A stretch of 64,000 bases of DNA from Thermobifida halotolerans. GTDB lineage: Bacteria; Actinomycetota; Actinomycetes; Streptosporangiales; Streptosporangiaceae. The notes under the pieces were generated by a model. The model saw nothing but the letters and a program-made list of their open reading frames with translations. It was not told the DNA's origin and searched no databases. The position numbers were made by a program, and so were the translations under genes. The DNA is taken from the NCBI RefSeq assembly GCF_003574835.2, contig NZ_CP063196.1, forward strand, positions 3,596,001 to 3,660,000, given 5' to 3'. This document shows positions 3,477-56,502 of this stretch, piece after piece (position 1 is the first letter of the stretch; every line of letters begins with the position of its first letter).

Positions 3477-3611
3477 GGCCGCGCTGAATGTTTCCCCCCT
3501 CGACCCGCGACCGGTACGGCGGGCGCTTTTCGGCCCGTTCGTGCGGGCTTCCCGCAACGGTGTTGTCGCCTACCCACCGTAGGAGAGCGGTTTCGTACCG
3601 CCACGTCGGTG

Positions 3612-3638
3612 GGTCTCCGCGGCAGCGCCGCGGAGACC
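3612..3638 (+). other. Strong hairpin in the leader of the coiled-coil gene
   Basis: A perfect 12-bp inverted repeat (GGTCTCCGCGGC and its complement) with a three-base loop, 75 bp upstream of the chosen start. No T-run follows, so it is not a classic terminator. It may be a transcript-stability or attenuation structure. Confidence 0.55.
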
Positions 3639-3713
3639 GCCGGACCGCGCGGGGACTCCCCGTCCGAAGTCGCCGAAAGGACGGGGAAGCGCCATATCCA
3701 AAGGAGCACCTCG

Positions 3714-5912
3714 GTGGAACAGACCAACCACAACTTCCTCAACGGGGGAGGTCAGGCCGGGATCTCTGATCGCATGCGGGAGCTGCTCTCCCGGGCTGCC
3801 CAGGAGCATCTCTCGGAGCAGAAATCGCAGGGCGCGATCACCGAGGAGATGCGTCAGCGGCTTGAGGGCATGGAGTGGCTGCTGCGCGAGTTCCGTGAAC
3901 GGGAACTGGCCGCACTGTCCGAGAACATCACCACGGTCAAGTCCAGCGTCGACGAACTGTCCACCCGTCCCCCCGAGTGGGCCGAGACGCTCGCGGAGCA
4001 CATCGAGCAGGTGGGCGTACGGGTCAGGCCGCTGTCGGAGATGGCTCCGCTGCGCTCGGACGTCACCGGGCTCGCCGGCGCTCTGGAGACCGCGCTGAGC
4101 CGTCTCGCGGAGCTCTCCGACACCGCCGCGCGCACCGCGGACCAGACCACCGCCCTCACCGAGCGGCTGGAGAGCCTGGCCGGTGCCGTCGACCTGCGCC
4201 TGTCCCGCATCGACGAGGCCATCGAGTCGCTGAGCACCCGGGCCGCGACCCTGGAGAACGCCGTGGAGTCCGTCGGGGAGCGCCTGGAGCGCCGCTTCGA
4301 CACCGCCCGTGAACTGGCCGTGGCCGACCACACCGCGCTCACCACCGCCCTGGACGAACAGCGCGAAGCCCTCACCGCACGCCTGGACGAGCAGCACACC
4401 GCCCTCGGCGAGACCCGCACCCAGCTCGAACAGCGCATCACCGACACCACCACCTCCCTCAACCGGGAAGCCGCCGAACGCCACACCGCGCTCACCACCG
4501 CCCTGGACGAACAGCGCGAAACGCTCACCGCACGCCTGGACGAGCAGCACACCGCCCTCGGCGAGACCCGCACCCAGCTCGAACAGCGCATCACCGACAC
4601 CACCACCTCCCTCAACCGGGAAGCCGCCGAACGCCACACCGCACTCACCACCGCCCTGGACGAACAGCGCGAAACGCTCACCGCACGCCTGGACGAGCAG
4701 CACACCGCGCTGAGCGGCACGCTCTCCCAGAGCGTGGAGTTCCTGACCACGCAGGCCGACGAGAACCACGCCGAGGCCACGGCCGCGATCGCCGACGTCA
4801 CCAGCGCGGTCGCGAAGCTGGACGGCGCCACCGGGGAGCAGCTCGGCGAGATGCGCGAGCAGTTGCGCAGGAACCGCGCGGAGCTGTCGGAGCAGTTGGG
4901 CGTCCAGCACGCGGAGCTGCGCGAGCGCGACGACGAGCAGCACGAGGCGGTGCTGAACCGGCTTGGTGAGGCCGCCGAGGCGCTGCGGTCGGCGATCGAC
5001 GACGGCCGCTCCGCGACCACCGCGGCGGTCGCGGAGCTGGCCTCCGCGCTGTCGGAGGCGCGGAGCGAGGCCAGGACGGACGTCGCGGCGCTGGAGGAGC
5101 GCGTCGCGGCCCGCGTCGAGGAACTGCGCGCCGCCGTGGCCGAGCACGTCCGTTCCCTCGGCGAGACCGTCGGGGAGCGCCACACCGCTCTGGCCGAGCG
5201 GTTCGAGGAGCACCGCACGTCCGTCCACGAGCGCCTCGACCAGCACGACCGCGAGTTGACGGAGCGGGTCGACGCCCACCTGGACGCCGTCACCACCAGG
5301 CTGGAGACCCAGCACGAGTCGCTGAGCGGCAGGTTCGAGCACGGGCTGGGCAACCTCGGCAGCCGCTTCGACACCTTCGAGGGCCGCTTCGACGGCAGCT
5401 TCGAGGGCATCGACGGCAAGCTCGACGGGCTGAACGGCCGCCTGGACGGCCTCGACGGCCGGGTCACCGGTGTGGAGGGCAAGTTCGACGGGGTCAGCGG
5501 CCACTTCGAGGGGGTCGACGGCCGCCTGGAGGCGATCGACGACCGGCTGGAGGCGGTCAACCAGCGCCTCTCCCAGCTCCCCGCCTCCATGGAGGTCAGC
5601 GAACTGCACCGGCGCCTGAGCGAACTGGTGGAGCGCCCGGTCATCGACCACGGCGACCGCCTCGACTCGCTCGGCCGCAAGCTGGACGAGGGCCTCGACC
5701 CGCTGCTGGGCGAACTGCGGGCCCGTCCCGACCGGCACGAGTTCGAGGAGACCATCAGCGAGGCCGTGGAGACGTCGCACGACGACATCACCAAGCGCCT
5801 GGCCGCCCTGGAGGAGACCATGCTCGCCCTGGCCGAGGCCCTGCTGCGCCCCGGCCGCGACGGCAAGAAGCGGCGCGCCGCCGCCGCGTTCGACGACGAG
5901 GACGACGAGTAG
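3714..5912 (+). CDS. Long repetitive coiled-coil protein, function unknown
   Basis: A 732-residue, mostly helical, charged protein rich in Glu, Arg, Leu and Thr. There is no signal peptide or membrane segment. GTG at 3714 is chosen because AAAGGAG lies eight bases upstream. Residues ~206-331 are built from a 51-residue unit (TALTTALDEQRE...REAAERH) repeated two and a half times. Residues ~545-625 have seven-residue repeats of the form F/L-x-G-x-x-D/E-G (for example GRFDG, GKLDG, GRLDG). The tail is KKRR followed by an acidic stretch. It resembles actinobacterial cytoskeletal or scaffold-like coiled-coil proteins, but I cannot name a family. It is followed at once by a terminator hairpin, so it is probably monocistronic. 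Confidence 0.85.
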   Translation: MEQTNHNFLNGGGQAGISDRMRELLSRAAQEHLSEQKSQGAITEEMRQRLEGMEWLLREFRERELAALSENITTVKSSVDELSTRPPEWAETLAEHIEQVGVRVRPLSEMAPLRSDVTGLAGALETALSRLAELSDTAARTADQTTALTERLESLAGAVDLRLSRIDEAIESLSTRAATLENAVESVGERLERRFDTARELAVADHTALTTALDEQREALTARLDEQHTALGETRTQLEQRITDTTTSLNREAAERHTALTTALDEQRETLTARLDEQHTALGETRTQLEQRITDTTTSLNREAAERHTALTTALDEQRETLTARLDEQHTALSGTLSQSVEFLTTQADENHAEATAAIADVTSAVAKLDGATGEQLGEMREQLRRNRAELSEQLGVQHAELRERDDEQHEAVLNRLGEAAEALRSAIDDGRSATTAAVAELASALSEARSEARTDVAALEERVAARVEELRAAVAEHVRSLGETVGERHTALAERFEEHRTSVHERLDQHDRELTERVDAHLDAVTTRLETQHESLSGRFEHGLGNLGSRFDTFEGRFDGSFEGIDGKLDGLNGRLDGLDGRVTGVEGKFDGVSGHFEGVDGRLEAIDDRLEAVNQRLSQLPASMEVSELHRRLSELVERPVIDHGDRLDSLGRKLDEGLDPLLGELRARPDRHEFEETISEAVETSHDDITKRLAALEETMLALAEALLRPGRDGKKRRAAAAFDDEDDE
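4331..4706 (+). repeat. 153-bp tandem repeat within the coiled-coil gene (about 2.5 copies)
   Basis: Copies begin at 4331, 4484 and 4637, exactly 153 bp (51 codons) apart and almost identical; the third stops after about 70 bp. The near-identity at silent positions indicates recent duplication or gene conversion. Copy number is likely to vary between strains by slippage or recombination. Confidence 0.93.
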
Positions 5913-24752: not shown

Positions 24753-26771
24753 GTGTGTCCGCCTGAACGTGCGACGCTCCGACAGGACCGTTTCGCCCCC
24801 CTAGTCCGGTTCGCGGCTTTGCGACCGATCCTGTACAGGCGAGAATACGGAATTCGTGACGCAGCACGCGGTGGGGACGGGCCGCCTCCGGCCCCGTTCC
24901 CCGCCCCAGGACAGCATCCGGAGTCTCCCATCGCACCGCATCCGAACGAGCCCACCGACGGCCGTGCCCCCTACGGTCCGTCGTATCCTCCCGCGCCCGT
25001 GAACCAGGGCCCGGACGAGACCGCGCAGGCTCCGCGGTCAGCGCCCCCCGCTTCCCACCCCGGCCCCGCCCAGGGCGGAGACGTCCTCCGGTCGGGCCCC
25101 CGGTCTCCGCTGGATCCGCCTCCGTCGGCCGCGCGTCCGCCGCTGCCGCCGTCAGGCCCGCAGCAACCCGTGCCCGGCACCACACCCCCGCCCCACCCCG
25201 GCCTCGGGCCACAGCCGCCGCACGGAGCCCCCCTTCCCCCCGCGGCCCCGGGCCCCCAGCCCCCCGCCGCCGCTCCTCCGGGCCCACCCGGCGCCATCGC
25301 CCCCTCAGGCCCCCAGCAACCCCCCGCCCACCCGGCCCCCTCGGGACCGCAGCAGCCCCCGACCGCGTGGAACTCCCCCAGCGGCGCACAACACCCCCAC
25401 CCACCCCACCAAGGGCCACCCCACCTCCCCGGACGCCACGGCCAGCACGGTCTCCCCGGATCGGCCGCGCGTCCGCCGCTGCCGCCGTCGGGCCCGCAGC
25501 AACCCGTGCCCGGCACCACACCCCCGCCCCACCCCGGCCCCGGGCCACAGCCGCCGCACGGAGCCCCCCTTCCCCCCGCGGCCCCGGGCCCCCAACCCCC
25601 CGCCGCCGCTCCTCCGGGCCCACCCGGCGCCATCGCCCCCTCAGGCCCCCAGCAACCCCCCACCCACCCGGCCCCCTCGGGACCGCAGCAGCCCCCGACC
25701 GCGTGGAACTCCCCCAGCGGCGCACAACACCCCCACCCACCCGGACAGCAGCCTCCCGCCGCCCCGGTGCCACCTGCGGACCAGCCGATCCAGGGCAGGG
25801 TGGTTCCTCCCGGAGGAATCGGCTCCGGAATGGAGGACGCGACCCAGATCGTGCCTCCGGTCGGCGACGACGCGGCCACCCAGGCGATCCCGCCGCTACG
25901 TGAGGACTCCGCGGCCACCCAGGCGATCCCGCCGCTGCGTGAGGACTCCGCGGCCACCCAGGCGGCCCCGGACGACGACATGTTCGGCGGGCTGCCGATG
26001 TTCCGCGACGAGGTCCCGTCCCAGCAGGACTCCCCGGACAGCACCGCCGAGATCGACATGTCCGAGTACGACGCCTACGAACGCGGTCGGCGGGGCCGCC
26101 GCGGCGTGTCCAGGGACAGGTCCCGGATCCTGCTCGTCGGCGCCGGGTTCGCCGCGCTGCTGCTGGTCGGCGGAGGCGGCGCGTTCCTCCTCGCCTCCAC
26201 GGGCGGGGAGTCCGCTCCGAGCTCCGCCGGCGACTACGACGTCTCCAGGGTCGCCGACGAGTCGGCCGACCCCGAGGCGCTCAAGGCGGGAGAGCTGTTC
26301 GCCCAGGAGACCCTGGAGGTGAACGGTGAGACCTTCACCCTCCTGCTGACCGACGACACCGACAAGTGCGCGACCACCGCGCACGGCGACTACGCCCAGG
26401 TGCTCACCGACAACGAGTGCCGTCAGGTGGTGCGGGCGACGTACGTGAACGAGGACGGCACCCGCGCCGTCACCGTCGGTGTGGCCGCCATGTCCGACTC
26501 CGACGGCGCGAAGGCCGCCGGCGAGGCGCAGGACCCCGGGGCCACCCGGTGGTTCGCCGGACTGGCCGGACAGGAGGGCAGCGGGGCCGAGCGGATGGAC
26601 ATCGCGGGCGGCCACGCCTCCAGCGCCGTCTGGGGCCGCTACGTGGTCTTCTCCCTCGCCGCCAACGCCGACGGCCGCACCCCGCAGGAGGAGAACCCGG
26701 AACTGGCGGAGATCAGCGACTACTTCGTCGACGTCGCCCTGGCCCCCCTGGGGCAGCGCGCGGCGGCCTGA
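24753..26771 (+). CDS. Proline-rich single-pass membrane protein, function unknown
   Basis: Up to 672 residues. About 350 residues of Pro/Gly/Gln-rich low complexity come first, then an acidic stretch with repeated ATQAIPPLREDS units, and a basic RRGRRGVSRDRSR stop-transfer signal. One membrane helix (ILLVGAGFAALLLVGGGGAFLL) lies near residue 465, followed by a ~180-residue outer domain with two cysteines (KCATTAH, NECRQVV). This suggests a cytoplasmic proline-rich tail and an extracellular domain. The start is uncertain: GTG 24753 has no ribosome binding site, GTG 24999 is also in frame, and the well-placed GTG at 24703 is in another frame. The gene is divergent from rplM. Confidence 0.75.
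   Translation: MCPPERATLRQDRFAPLVRFAALRPILYRREYGIRDAARGGDGPPPAPFPAPGQHPESPIAPHPNEPTDGRAPYGPSYPPAPVNQGPDETAQAPRSAPPASHPGPAQGGDVLRSGPRSPLDPPPSAARPPLPPSGPQQPVPGTTPPPHPGLGPQPPHGAPLPPAAPGPQPPAAAPPGPPGAIAPSGPQQPPAHPAPSGPQQPPTAWNSPSGAQHPHPPHQGPPHLPGRHGQHGLPGSAARPPLPPSGPQQPVPGTTPPPHPGPGPQPPHGAPLPPAAPGPQPPAAAPPGPPGAIAPSGPQQPPTHPAPSGPQQPPTAWNSPSGAQHPHPPGQQPPAAPVPPADQPIQGRVVPPGGIGSGMEDATQIVPPVGDDAATQAIPPLREDSAATQAIPPLREDSAATQAAPDDDMFGGLPMFRDEVPSQQDSPDSTAEIDMSEYDAYERGRRGRRGVSRDRSRILLVGAGFAALLLVGGGGAFLLASTGGESAPSSAGDYDVSRVADESADPEALKAGELFAQETLEVNGETFTLLLTDDTDKCATTAHGDYAQVLTDNECRQVVRATYVNEDGTRAVTVGVAAMSDSDGAKAAGEAQDPGATRWFAGLAGQEGSGAERMDIAGGHASSAVWGRYVVFSLAANADGRTPQEENPELAEISDYFVDVALAPLGQRAAA
25125..25743 (+). 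repeat. 336-bp-spaced direct duplication in the proline-rich gene
   Basis: A segment of about 283 bp at 25125-25407 recurs at 25461-25743, offset by exactly 336 bp (112 codons) and differing at only a few bases. A 53-bp unrepeated linker separates the copies. Near-identity at silent sites marks a recent in-frame duplication. Confidence 0.93.
25872..25970 (+). repeat. 39-bp tandem repeat encoding ATQAIPPLREDS
   Basis: Copies start at 25872, 25911 and 25950 (13-codon period; the third is partial). Together with an upstream DATQIVPP they give four A-T-Q motifs just before the membrane helix on the presumed cytoplasmic side. Confidence 0.9.
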
Positions 26772-49195: not shown

Positions 49196-49667
49196 CGCGT
49201 CTCCGTCTTCCCTCTTGACCTACGCCGGTTCCATAGCCGATGGATGCGCTATGACCTGCTGGATTTCCCGTTCCCCCCGACCCACGCATTCGGGCGTGTC
49301 GCCCCGGATTCCACGCACGGTGGAGCGAAAACGCCCGACCAGTGGCCGATTGTCATGGGAGGAGGTGTCACGCGCCGCTCTCCCCGTCGCCCGCTGAACA
49401 GGGACAGACACAAAAAGCGCACACGTGTGACCCGTAGACTCACGGGCACGAAGTTGGAGACTACCCAACAGAGATCACCCGGTCAAAATCAGGTGACCTC
49501 GTTGGGCGTCCGCACTTCGCAGCCTCATGCTGCCGTAGGTCTCCTCATAGTGTACGGCTTGTCAAGAGTGGTCGCGTTGTTTTTCCGGGCCGCACGGACA
49601 CGCTTTCCCATAGCGTGGGCGAATTCTCGGTAAACCCTCCCACCCTGTCCCGACTCGCCTCCCGGGG
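49196..49667. other. Upstream region of rpsL
   Basis: 472 bp between rpsL and the stop of the DUF4190 gene. It should hold the str-operon promoter and a long leader. A perfect TTGACA occurs on the minus strand near 49556-49561, but no good -10 lies 16-19 bases downstream. A small hairpin (GCCCGT/ACGGGT) lies near 49430-49450. No gene is convincing. Confidence 0.45.
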
Positions 49668-52475
49668 TCAGGACAGCAGCAGGGCGCCACCTCCCGCGAG
49701 CACGCTCACCGCGATCCCGATGCAGGCGAGCACCGTGCCCGCCTTGACCAACTGCTCGCCTTCGAGGTGGCCGCGCGAGGTCCGGATGTTCCGCTTCGCC
49801 TTGGGTCCCAGAACCAGCGCGATCACCGCGAGCAGCAGACCGACGCCCGGGATCAGGGAGAAGATGCCGAGCCACAGGGTCGCGGTGGCCAGACCCTCCG
49901 TCTCGGGCCACACGTCGATGTTGTCGTAACCGGGGTAGTCGGAAGCCGTTCCGCCGAGCGGCTCGCTGAAGCCGGGGAACTCCTCGACGATCTTGTCCCT
50001 CTTCCGGGTACGGGAGCGTCCCTCCCGTACCGGCTCGGGGTAGTAGCGGTCGTCGACGTCGTCGTAGTAGTCGTCGTCCGGTTCCTCACGCCGGTCCCGG
50101 TCGTCGTCGTGGGAGGCGTCGTCCCCGCGCCATCCGCTGCCGTACCGCTCGGTCTCCGGGTCGACCGCCGCCAGAGTCTGGGTACCCTCCGCCTGGTCGA
50201 AACGGTGGTCGTCGTCCTCGTAGCCGTCATAGCCGTCGTGGTCGCGACGGCGGTCACCGCGGTCCGGGGCGTCGTAGTCGTAGTCGTCGTAGTCGTCGTA
50301 GTCGTCGGAACCGCGGTGGGAGTACTCGGTGTCCCGGCGTCCGTCGTAGCCCAACTCGTCGTAGCGGGACCCGTGGTCCGCGGAGTGATCGCCGTACTCC
50401 GTCTCACCACGGAGATACCGTTCGGCGGCCAGGGCGTCGTCTCCGAGTTCGGGCGGCAGAGGAACCGCGCCGGTGTTCTCCTTGACGATCCCTTCCGCCA
50501 GGTTCCAGTTGTCGACCTCGTTCTGGGAGGCCAGTTCCTTGGTGCGTGCCCTGGCCTGCTCGTCGGCGATGGCCAGCAGCGGGTCCGCGGACGCGGGGGC
50601 CTCCGGGGACGCCTCCTCGTGCCGTGCCTCGGGCTCGGACGCTCCGGCCTCCTCCTCCGCCGCGTCCAGAGTCTCGCCCGACCGGTCCCAGCGGTCGCCG
50701 TCGTCATCCGCCGTGTCCCAGGTGTTCTGGTCGGTCTCTCCAGGGCTCCAGGACAACTCCGTGTCGAGGGAGGCCGTCAGGGACGTGTCGACGTCGGCGG
50801 GCCGTCCGGCGGCCCGCTCCGCGATCTCGCGCACGCTTTCGGGCAACCGCGGATCATCCCGGCTGAACGCCCAGGTGTTTCCGCTGCCGCTGCCCAGCGA
50901 CCCACCGAGCGAGGAGTCAGCCGCACCACGCGACTCCCACTCCTCACCCCGATCCCAGTCAGACACCCCGAGATCCGAAGCAGAAGCAGCACCCTCACCA
51001 AGACCGCCGCCCACACCGGAAGAAGTCCCCCACCCGGTATCAGCACCCAGCGACCCACCAAGCGAGGAATCAGCCGCACCACGCGACTCCCACTCCTCAC
51101 CCCGATCCCAGTCAGACACCCCGAGATCCGAAGCAGAAGCAGCACCCTCACCAAGACCGCCGCCCACACCGGAAGAAGTCCCCCACCCGGTATCAGCACC
51201 CAGCGACCCACCAAGCGAGGAATCAGCCGCACCACGCGACTCCCACTCCTCACCCCGATCCCAGTCAGACACCCCGAGATCCGAAGCAGAAGCAGCACCC
51301 TCACCAAGACCGCCGCCCACACCGGAAGAAGTCCCCCACCCGGGGTAGTCGCTGCCGTGCTGCTGGTGGTAGGGCGGCACCAGTCGGTTCGGGTCGGACG
51401 GGGACTGGTCGCTGTCCCTGGTGGGAATGCGGTAGATGCTCGTGGGATCGAGCGGCCGGTCGGTCCGCCCGTCGACCGATTCGGCGCTCCGCTCCGCCGG
51501 CGATGCACCGCTGTTGTCGGCCGGAGCCGCGTGGGACCGCTCGGCCCCGGCGGAGTAACCGGTGAGGGAGTCGTCCGTGCTCCGCGGTGACCAGTCGTCG
51601 GTGGACCATTCCGGCTGGCTTTCCGGCCCCGCGGTGTCCTCGGCCGACCGCGCGCCGAACGTCGACGACAGACCGAGGTCGTACCCCGAATCACCGGAGG
51701 CCGAGGACTCTTCCGGCACCGGAGTGTCCAACCGGTAGGTGGCGCCCCGCTCAGCGCCCGTGTCGGCTCCCCATGCCTCCGGCCCCGCGGTGTCCTCGGC
51801 CGACCGCGCGCCGAACGTCGACGACAGACCGAGGTCGTACCCCGAATCACCGGAGGCCGAGGACTCTTCCGGCACCGGAGTGTCCAACCGGTAGGTGGCG
51901 CCCTGCACGAACGACGTGGTCGTTCTCTCGGCCCCTCCGGAAGCGGACGGAGACGCCGGGGCGGTCCCGGACGTGTACAAGTCCTCGGGCCGGTAGGACC
52001 GCGAGGAGAGGTCGTAGGAGGGCCCGGGGCCCGGATCACCGCCCGCCTCCACGGCGTCGTCCTGCTCGGTGCGTCCGGTCCCGCCCGCCGGTTCCCCCCC
52101 GTAGGGGGCCCGCGGCGGCAGATCGAAGGGGTAGTCGCTCGTCGAGGACCCGGATGCCGTGTCTTCGGGCTGCCCCAGGTCGCTCAATGCCGCGGGGTAC
52201 GGCTCGGCCATTCCAGGGGTGCCGGCCCCGTACCCGCCGAGACCCGGGTATCCGCCGCTGTTCGGGTATCTCGGACTCGACAGAGCGTCGTGGTGATCCG
52301 ATGACTCTCCACGCGCGGGATCGTCCTGGTCGTCCTGCCGATCCCCGTATGGGTCTCGGTACTCCGCCTGAGTCCGGTACCGCTCGTTACTCGGCTGGAA
52401 CCAGGAGCCCGCAGCGTCCTGCGTCCGCTCCTGCCCGCCGTGGGGCCGGTCCGGCACTCCCCCGTTTTCGGTCAC
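49668..52475 (-). CDS. Large acidic repeat-rich protein with C-terminal DUF4190 membrane domain
   Basis: A 935-residue protein between the rpoC terminator and rpsL. Most of it is disordered, acidic and rich in Ser, Gly, Asp, Tyr and Pro. Two blocks are repeated: an ~41-residue TYRLDTPVPEESSASGDSGY unit twice, then a 51-residue unit (GWGTSSGVGGG...LGADT) three times. The C-terminus is a compact DUF4190 domain with two hydrophobic helices around ATATLWLGIFSLIPGVGLLL and AGTVLACIGIAVSVLAGGGA, joined by a basic GPKAKRNIRTSRG loop. GTG 52475 is chosen because upstream codons run into the rpoC terminator and rpoC. Function is unknown; a membrane-tethered scaffold or interaction tail is a guess. Confidence 0.85.
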   Translation of the reverse strand: MTENGGVPDRPHGGQERTQDAAGSWFQPSNERYRTQAEYRDPYGDRQDDQDDPARGESSDHHDALSSPRYPNSGGYPGLGGYGAGTPGMAEPYPAALSDLGQPEDTASGSSTSDYPFDLPPRAPYGGEPAGGTGRTEQDDAVEAGGDPGPGPSYDLSSRSYRPEDLYTSGTAPASPSASGGAERTTTSFVQGATYRLDTPVPEESSASGDSGYDLGLSSTFGARSAEDTAGPEAWGADTGAERGATYRLDTPVPEESSASGDSGYDLGLSSTFGARSAEDTAGPESQPEWSTDDWSPRSTDDSLTGYSAGAERSHAAPADNSGASPAERSAESVDGRTDRPLDPTSIYRIPTRDSDQSPSDPNRLVPPYHQQHGSDYPGWGTSSGVGGGLGEGAASASDLGVSDWDRGEEWESRGAADSSLGGSLGADTGWGTSSGVGGGLGEGAASASDLGVSDWDRGEEWESRGAADSSLGGSLGADTGWGTSSGVGGGLGEGAASASDLGVSDWDRGEEWESRGAADSSLGGSLGSGSGNTWAFSRDDPRLPESVREIAERAAGRPADVDTSLTASLDTELSWSPGETDQNTWDTADDDGDRWDRSGETLDAAEEEAGASEPEARHEEASPEAPASADPLLAIADEQARARTKELASQNEVDNWNLAEGIVKENTGAVPLPPELGDDALAAERYLRGETEYGDHSADHGSRYDELGYDGRRDTEYSHRGSDDYDDYDDYDYDAPDRGDRRRDHDGYDGYEDDDHRFDQAEGTQTLAAVDPETERYGSGWRGDDASHDDDRDRREEPDDDYYDDVDDRYYPEPVREGRSRTRKRDKIVEEFPGFSEPLGGTASDYPGYDNIDVWPETEGLATATLWLGIFSLIPGVGLLLAVIALVLGPKAKRNIRTSRGHLEGEQLVKAGTVLACIGIAVSVLAGGGALLLS
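50893..51345 (-). repeat. 153-bp tandem repeat in the DUF4190 gene (three copies)
   Basis: Copies begin (plus coordinates) at 50893, 51046 and 51199, a period of exactly 153 bp (51 codons). The repeats are almost identical, and in them codons with A or T in the third position are more frequent than in flanking sequence. Confidence 0.95.
51625..51904 (-). repeat. 156-bp-spaced duplication in the DUF4190 gene
   Basis: About 120 bp starting at 51625 recurs starting at 51781 with essentially no differences, encoding two copies of the TYRLDTPVPEESSASGDSGY block. Confidence 0.9.
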
Positions 52476-52546
52476 TGTCCTTGATCTCCCGACCGCACTT
52501 GCGCGCCCAACAGATTCTCCCACGAGTATGTCAACCGGTAACGACG

Positions 52547-52589
52547 GACGGCGGTAGTGCCGCCCTTCTCGAGATGCACTACCGCCGTC
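52547..52589 (-). terminator. Terminator of rpoB-rpoC
   Basis: A perfect 14-bp inverted repeat (GACGGCGGTAGTGC and its complement) with a 15-base loop lies 38 bp after the rpoC stop. No T-run follows. It isolates rpoBC from the DUF4190 gene. Confidence 0.75.
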
Positions 52590-52626
52590 ACTCAGGCTCA
52601 ACCGGTCGTCACCGATCGGTTCCGGG

Positions 52627-56502
<3,876 letters not shown>

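Follow-up and report, generated by a model that had tools for sequence, protein, structure and literature searches.

A 935-codon gene in a genome of the genus Thermobifida (family Nocardiopsidaceae), a heat-loving soil bacterium, is real and conserved between rpoC and rpsL, on the strand of both. Its product carries a long acidic tail, in which five short conserved islands are set among freely changing stretches, and closes with a small two-helix DUF4190 end. Our preferred reading, to which we give a little less than an even chance, is a C-terminally anchored protein with a cytosolic, disordered tail made of docking islands and a spacer that lengthens by duplication. The window, that is, the whole stretch of DNA analysed, comprises 64,000 nucleotides (G000:C1:3596001-3660000) and contains the gene as follows.

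49668..52475, minus strand: whole gene, 935 codons, GTG start (from the frame and its orthologs)

Read along the minus strand, the end of rpoC at 52627 is followed by 151 bases, the gene (52475-49668, with its stop codon at 49668-49670), 472 bases, and rpsL (49195-48824). These coordinates, the strand, the length, and the GTG start are exactly those that a sequence-only reading of this DNA had given. The starts of the orthologs share V/M-T-E/D, with the variants MTENSGR in G103 and VNDNGG in G126, and GGTCGGGAGA precedes the start codon in most of them. A start further upstream, at 53045 and within rpoC, was rejected: it is the start at 52475 that has the conservation and the GGGAGA sequence. 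Two plus-strand open frames (49767-51590 and 51587-52639) were set aside as high-GC shadows, since the minus frame has a codon-position GC of 0.70/0.58/0.82 and conserved orthologs. Recent capture of the whole gene was rejected, as the locus is constant throughout the clade.

The long form was found in 28 distinct genomes, drawn from a survey of relatives (12), a survey of the class (3), and 20 named loci, seven of which were survey genomes again. It is complete and open in 22 of the 28, with lengths of 622-1404 aa (L102 has one ambiguous codon), and in T. cellulosilytica it is open across a 549-base N run. Four are incomplete, either broken at an N run (L091) or cut by contig ends (L100, L103, which is G011, and L106), and the last of the 28, L104, has its frame broken within the second helix. 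The long form of G103 has a weak Pfam DUF4190 score of 13.8 bits. Wherever both flanks were on the sequenced piece, the long form sits between rpoC and rpsL. As a sign that the gene is not maintained, the sequence-only reading had named its loss or a decayed frame in near relatives; instead, each of the three further Thermobifida genomes searched holds an open copy, and by sequence comparison the gene is not decaying.

The same junction was surveyed more widely. In 60 unselected genomes, rpsL was matched in 57, which gave 58 loci (the second rpsL-like match of G056 was left out). A DUF4190 profile was made from ten seed domains, of which nine come from loci in the count, and it detected a DUF4190 frame upstream of rpsL and on its strand at 21 of these 58. 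They comprise 12 long forms, seven short forms, a frame of at least 637 residues with a different tail and a cut N-terminus (L034), and one cut at a contig end (L035); L042, whose DUF4190 frames lie more than 8 kb away, was excluded from the count. The remaining loci have other genes in between or rpoC off the piece, apart from 19 that carry no DUF4190 and have an rpoC-rpsL gap below 1 kb. The earlier description of the junction as one usually held by short genes fits in part, with a DUF4190 frame at 21 of 58 loci, seven of them short, and none at the 19 just mentioned. In a second set of 40 loci, partly picked for a neighbouring DUF4190 and thus biased in frequency, 17 carried the domain, for a total of 38 of 98 loci and 15 of 36 families. 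In 5 of the 38 DUF4190 loci no rpoC was detected on the piece. The position between rpoC and rpsL is thus established for the window's own family and for 11 more, while f22, f24, and f31 show the gene only as upstream of rpsL. Pfam alone recognised DUF4190 in 24 of the 26 junction domains scanned (E up to 1). Second, more divergent rpsL-like matches were seen at L084 (G031:C12:355089-355451, 83% identity) and at G056:C140:32188-32556 (55% identity).

Three f3 proteins start with MTEQGG or MTDQGG, which resembles the VTE.GG or VTD.GG of the long forms. The shared place and this start motif argue that the long gene is an enlarged ortholog of the widespread short junction DUF4190 gene. Outside the clade, the gene is much shorter wherever relatives have it, and the large size is, as far as the sequences go, a clade-specific enlargement of the short gene. 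As we infer the order of events, the short gene is probably ancestral, disappeared from many genera of the wider family, and became enlarged in Nocardiopsidaceae. Short and long proteins are alike in their place and in the C-terminal two-helix domain (PF13828) that follows a low-complexity tail. However, the tail of the long form is mostly 4-10 times longer and is acidic, and its islands were not seen in the short junction proteins when these were compared by reading. A third arrangement was found in f20, where a DUF1707-like stretch precedes DUF4190 in four loci (L120, L123, L126, and L148). Pfam confirms DUF1707 plus DUF4190 in both f20 proteins scanned (L126 and L148); these have the same place and the same end domain as the long form, but a small DUF1707 domain where the latter has its giant, predictedly disordered tail. 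A small Pro/Gly-rich protein of the window's own genome, at L087 (G000:C1:1434337-1434489, minus strand) gave a weak DUF4190 match of 23.2 bits and looks CD225-like to the eye.

A search of the literature, with few subscription journals covered, found no paper that names DUF4190 or describes the gene. The locus tags searched presumably adjoin rpsL. They led to one paper, in which a 500-bp fragment from upstream of sco4658 served as promoter (PMC4625935). The DUF4190 domain and the junction as the place of a short gene are known, and the long tail is undescribed in the literature searched.

The C-terminal end is the one recognised domain of the protein.

49695..49892, minus strand: DUF4190, residues 862-927, with predicted helices at 860-899 and 907-934 (Pfam, AlphaFold)

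DUF4190 scored 37.0 bits in the isolated 82-residue end, 36.3 bits in the genome search, and 30.6 bits in the whole protein; the first two meet the Pfam gathering cut-off of 35 bits and the whole protein falls below it. The match spans all 62 positions of the profile (1-62). The last 75 residues contain two hydrophobic helices, and no other hydrophobic segment was found in the window protein. A single-sequence structure prediction of the C-terminal end likewise gave two helices, with a mean pLDDT of 65.9. Domain and helices agree with the two-helix DUF4190 membrane end proposed earlier. The NCBIfam model NF040945 (CCC motif membrane protein) reached 23 bits (E 7.7e-5), below its cut-off of 65 bits. 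Searches against solved structures gave no match, either to the protein (E up to 1) or to the domain profile (E up to 10).

Without its last 75 residues, the window protein has a D+E fraction of 0.217, a K+R fraction of 0.079, and a net charge per residue of -0.138. All 12 sequences measured, the window protein included, are net negative, which upholds the description of the protein as acidic. The tail is enriched in Gly, Asp, Ser, and Ala, and cysteine is absent from it in all four Thermobifida proteins. The AlphaFold model has a mean pLDDT of 43.3, with 796 of the 935 residues below 50, values that come from a shallow 15-row alignment and are no proof of disorder. The pLDDT is low except in the C-terminal end and the island helices, the predicted helices being 546-556, 632-651, 860-899, and 907-934. 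A membrane-tethered, disordered protein, as had been suggested, agrees with these predictions.

Five islands of conservation were delimited in the tail.

52341..52475, minus strand: island 1, residues 1-45 (VTE.GG ... SWFxP...R...Q), with residues invariant in 15 sequences; dN/dS 0.19-0.49
52170..52268, minus strand: island 2, residues 70-102, with invariant residues; dN/dS 0.07-0.16
50808..50891, minus strand: island 3, residues 529-556 (SGNTWAFSRDDPRLPESVRE), predicted helix at 546-556; dN/dS 0.06-0.21
50523..50594, minus strand: island 4, residues 628-651 (DPLLAIADEQARAR), predicted helix at 632-651; dN/dS 0.25-0.53 (for 628-645)
49896..49985, minus strand: island 5, juxtamembrane residues 831-860 (FPGF...YPGYDNIDVWPET); dN/dS 0.09-0.19

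The alignment comprises 15 sequences, and identity to the window protein is 31-58% in the others. Its invariant residues fall in clusters at T2-G6, S24-Q36, P71-L97, G530-R549 (SGxTWAFSRDD..L....R), and, before the membrane segment, F833-D854. Island 4 (DPL.AIA..QARAR) is conserved but not invariant. The motif of island 3 varies: G002 is without TWAF, and TWAFE and TWAFD occur in G103 and G126, both outside the 15-sequence alignment.

The whole-protein dN/dS is 0.46, 0.38, and 0.56 against G002, T. fusca, and T. cellulosilytica, respectively. Outside the islands, the values are 0.30-1.02 for residues 46-69, 0.57-0.64 for 103-377, 0.36-0.67 for 378-528, 0.66-1.02 for 557-627, and 0.36-0.64 for 646-830; the DUF4190 region (861-935) has 0.17-0.32. 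These are simple Nei-Gojobori counts over short stretches, with some silent sites near saturation, so that the contrast between islands and spacer is consistent in the sequences compared while single values are rough. No convincing paralogue of the islands was found: the N-terminal 45 residues gave two further hits, at E 0.95 and 0.98, and residues 526-654 a single one, at E 0.031, whose frame is interrupted by two stops. With the full length as query, the own genome yielded nothing but the gene itself at E up to 10.

Between the islands lie two sets of tandem repeats.

51777..51902, minus strand: repeat A copy 1, residues 192-233; 1 mismatch per 126 nt between copies
51621..51746, minus strand: repeat A copy 2, residues 244-285; pairs with copy 1
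50892..51344, minus strand: repeat B array, residues 378-528, period 153 nt, 2.9 copies; third-position GC 0.53-0.60

Repeat A is a unit of 42 residues present twice and repeat B one of 51 residues present 2.9 times, both nearly exact in DNA. To that extent the protein is repeat-built, as the sequence-only reading had it, although the repeats cover only about a quarter of its length. A tandem-repeat scan of 18 genes found arrays in 15 (none above the score threshold in L101, L104, and L108), and the periods are multiples of three in all 65 tandem-repeat rows. The arrays differ from species to species. The GWGTSS and YRLDTP units of the window occur in none of the 27 other protein entries checked, some of which are the same genome twice, and an array ending within 40 residues before island 3 is found only in the window and in T. 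fusca, among 17 genes with TWAF. The spacer, then, grows by recent in-frame duplication, and the islands stay.

The third-position GC of repeat B is lower than the 0.79-0.90 of the other measured stretches, bar nine residues at 0.67, and repeat B alone may have been captured from elsewhere. Other proteins of the window likewise carry recent duplications. A 767-codon, coiled-coil-like frame (3609-5912, plus strand) has a 98% matching tandem repeat at 4328-4708, its period also being 153 nt. A 672-codon Pro-rich frame with one hydrophobic stretch (24753-26771, plus strand) has a 98% matching 336-nt duplication and a 39-nt repeat, located at 25125-25742.

Under our preferred reading, the hydrophobic C-terminal pair would anchor the protein in the cell membrane. 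The layout would be dispanin-like: the long N-terminal tail in the cytosol, the first segment lying in the membrane, then a basic cytosolic loop, one crossing helix, and almost nothing past that helix. The disordered tail would be a flexible tether and the five conserved islands docking sites for partners, two of them as helices that may form on binding. Between the islands, the spacer could take any sequence that preserves reading frame, disorder, and negative charge, and it would be lengthened by in-frame tandem duplication. The conservation of short islands amid freely changing sequence makes a scaffold the best-supported reading of the protein. The presence of the long form in 28 genomes, the constrained islands, the in-frame periods in 65 of 65 rows, the negative charge of 12 of 12 sequences, the low pLDDT outside the end and the island helices, and the lack of further hydrophobic segments speak for such a cytosolic scaffold. 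Against it stand the dN/dS of 0.66-1.02 at residues 557-627, the two full helices of the AlphaFold model, in which the first segment is not re-entrant, and the charge of the loop discussed below.

IFITM3 has its N-terminus and loop in the cytosol, its first hydrophobic segment in the membrane, and a short C-terminus outside, and the arrangement of PRRT2, which has a longer N-terminus, is thought to be similar (PMC7665892). The window protein resembles these dispanins (CD225 proteins, among them also the mycobacterial IFITMs) in its variable N-terminal tail, its very short C-terminus, and its two hydrophobic segments with a basic loop between them, and by this analogy the tail would face the cytosol. 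It differs in its far longer tail, and its topology is a proposed one. A further difference, which also counts against the cytosolic scaffold, is that the window domain had no match to CD225 (PF04505) at E up to 1. CD225 was weakly matched by 4 of the 26 junction domains (best E 7.5e-4), and two relatives scanned as whole proteins reached 18.0 and 14.8 bits, where the cut-off is 27.1. The window domain does match MpPF26 (E 3.8e-4), as do 8 of the 26 junction domains. We do not claim that the window protein is a dispanin.

In the opposite orientation, the helices would form a hairpin whose basic loop faces the cytosol, and the tail, some 860 acidic and disordered residues, would lie outside as a flexible element in or through the cell wall. 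Across 49 junction sequences, some of them close relatives of each other, charge averages -2.5 over the 20 residues that precede helix 1, +2.0 over the loop, and -0.1 over the C-terminus; in 42 of the 49, the loop exceeds the stretch ahead of helix 1 in positive charge. The positive-inside rule thus favors the loop inside and the tail exported, and the lack of cysteine in the tail of the four Thermobifida proteins points the same way. The same charge pattern is also compatible with the dispanin topology. However, moving 860 residues across the membrane after synthesis and without an evident signal is difficult; with no hydrophobic segment beyond the C-terminal pair, and with this anchor made last, such an export is hard to picture, and we consider an exported tail, and with it a role in the wall, unlikely. 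About as improbable in our view is that the tail is mostly evolutionary bulk, with only the anchor and a few motifs mattering and the tail lengthening as duplications are tolerated. The range of lengths (622-1404 aa), the differing arrays, the dN/dS of residues 103-377 and 557-627 (0.57-0.64 and 0.66-1.02), and the duplications in other window proteins would all fit, but no complete long form in the clade is shorter than 622 aa, and islands far apart in the tail are kept, as is the net negative charge.

We give less credence still to the tail demixing into membrane-bound clusters as its main function. The length and composition of the tail would suit a condensate former, and f3 orthologs have Tyr/Gln/Gly-rich tails of the YGQQ type, often called prion-like; composition, though, is a weak predictor, and here the sole one. 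Least probable of these ideas, a long shot, is that a dispanin-like anchor and giant tail tether part of the transcription or translation machinery, or its new products, to the membrane, with the gene therefore kept beside rpoC and rpsL and the reach of the tail tuned by tandem duplication.

Long disordered tails with short conserved binding motifs are known in bacteria from RNase E and the FtsZ linker. The tail with docking islands that we prefer is like them in that short conserved motifs are spaced by fast-evolving disorder, but no catalytic or filament-forming domain was found in the window protein, whose only domain is the anchor. The parts that matter stand out by contrast, as five short islands in an otherwise freely changing tail, which opens a direct way to test for docking partners. 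At this one locus the protein ranges from 108 aa (L129) to 1404 aa (L098), and the series offers a natural experiment on how tandem duplication builds a disordered tail. If the anchor is dispanin-like, it also bears on the bacterial roots of IFITM/PRRT2-type proteins.

The flanks of the gene hold two conserved elements.

52550..52586, minus strand: hairpin after rpoC, with no T run (alignment; missed by the consensus scan)
49458..49486, minus strand: putative str promoter, TTGACC-17 nt-TAGTCT (alignment; missed by the consensus scan)

The hairpin 3' of rpoC has the arms GGCGGTAGTGC...GCACTACCGCC in the window, and TTTTGACC is invariant upstream of rpsL in 17 of 17 loci. The proposed flanking by the rpoBC terminator and the str promoter is backed by a conserved hairpin and a promoter-like sequence, but the hairpin lacks a T run and the consensus scan of the flanks found 0 terminators and 0 promoters. 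For the gene's own promoter there is no clear candidate; TTGACATAC lies upstream in the four Thermobifida and is absent from the others aligned. The leader of rpsL (49196-49450, minus strand; about 255 bases, with its start inferred) is strongly conserved in the 17 of 17 Nocardiopsidaceae loci aligned. No Rfam family was found in the window at gathering scores, nor in this leader at E up to 1. The leader has a mean column identity of 70%, long invariant blocks, and an anti-Shine-Dalgarno-like ACC.CCTCCC; RNAalifold predicts 50 pairs, four of them with changes on both sides, and the leader is possibly structured.
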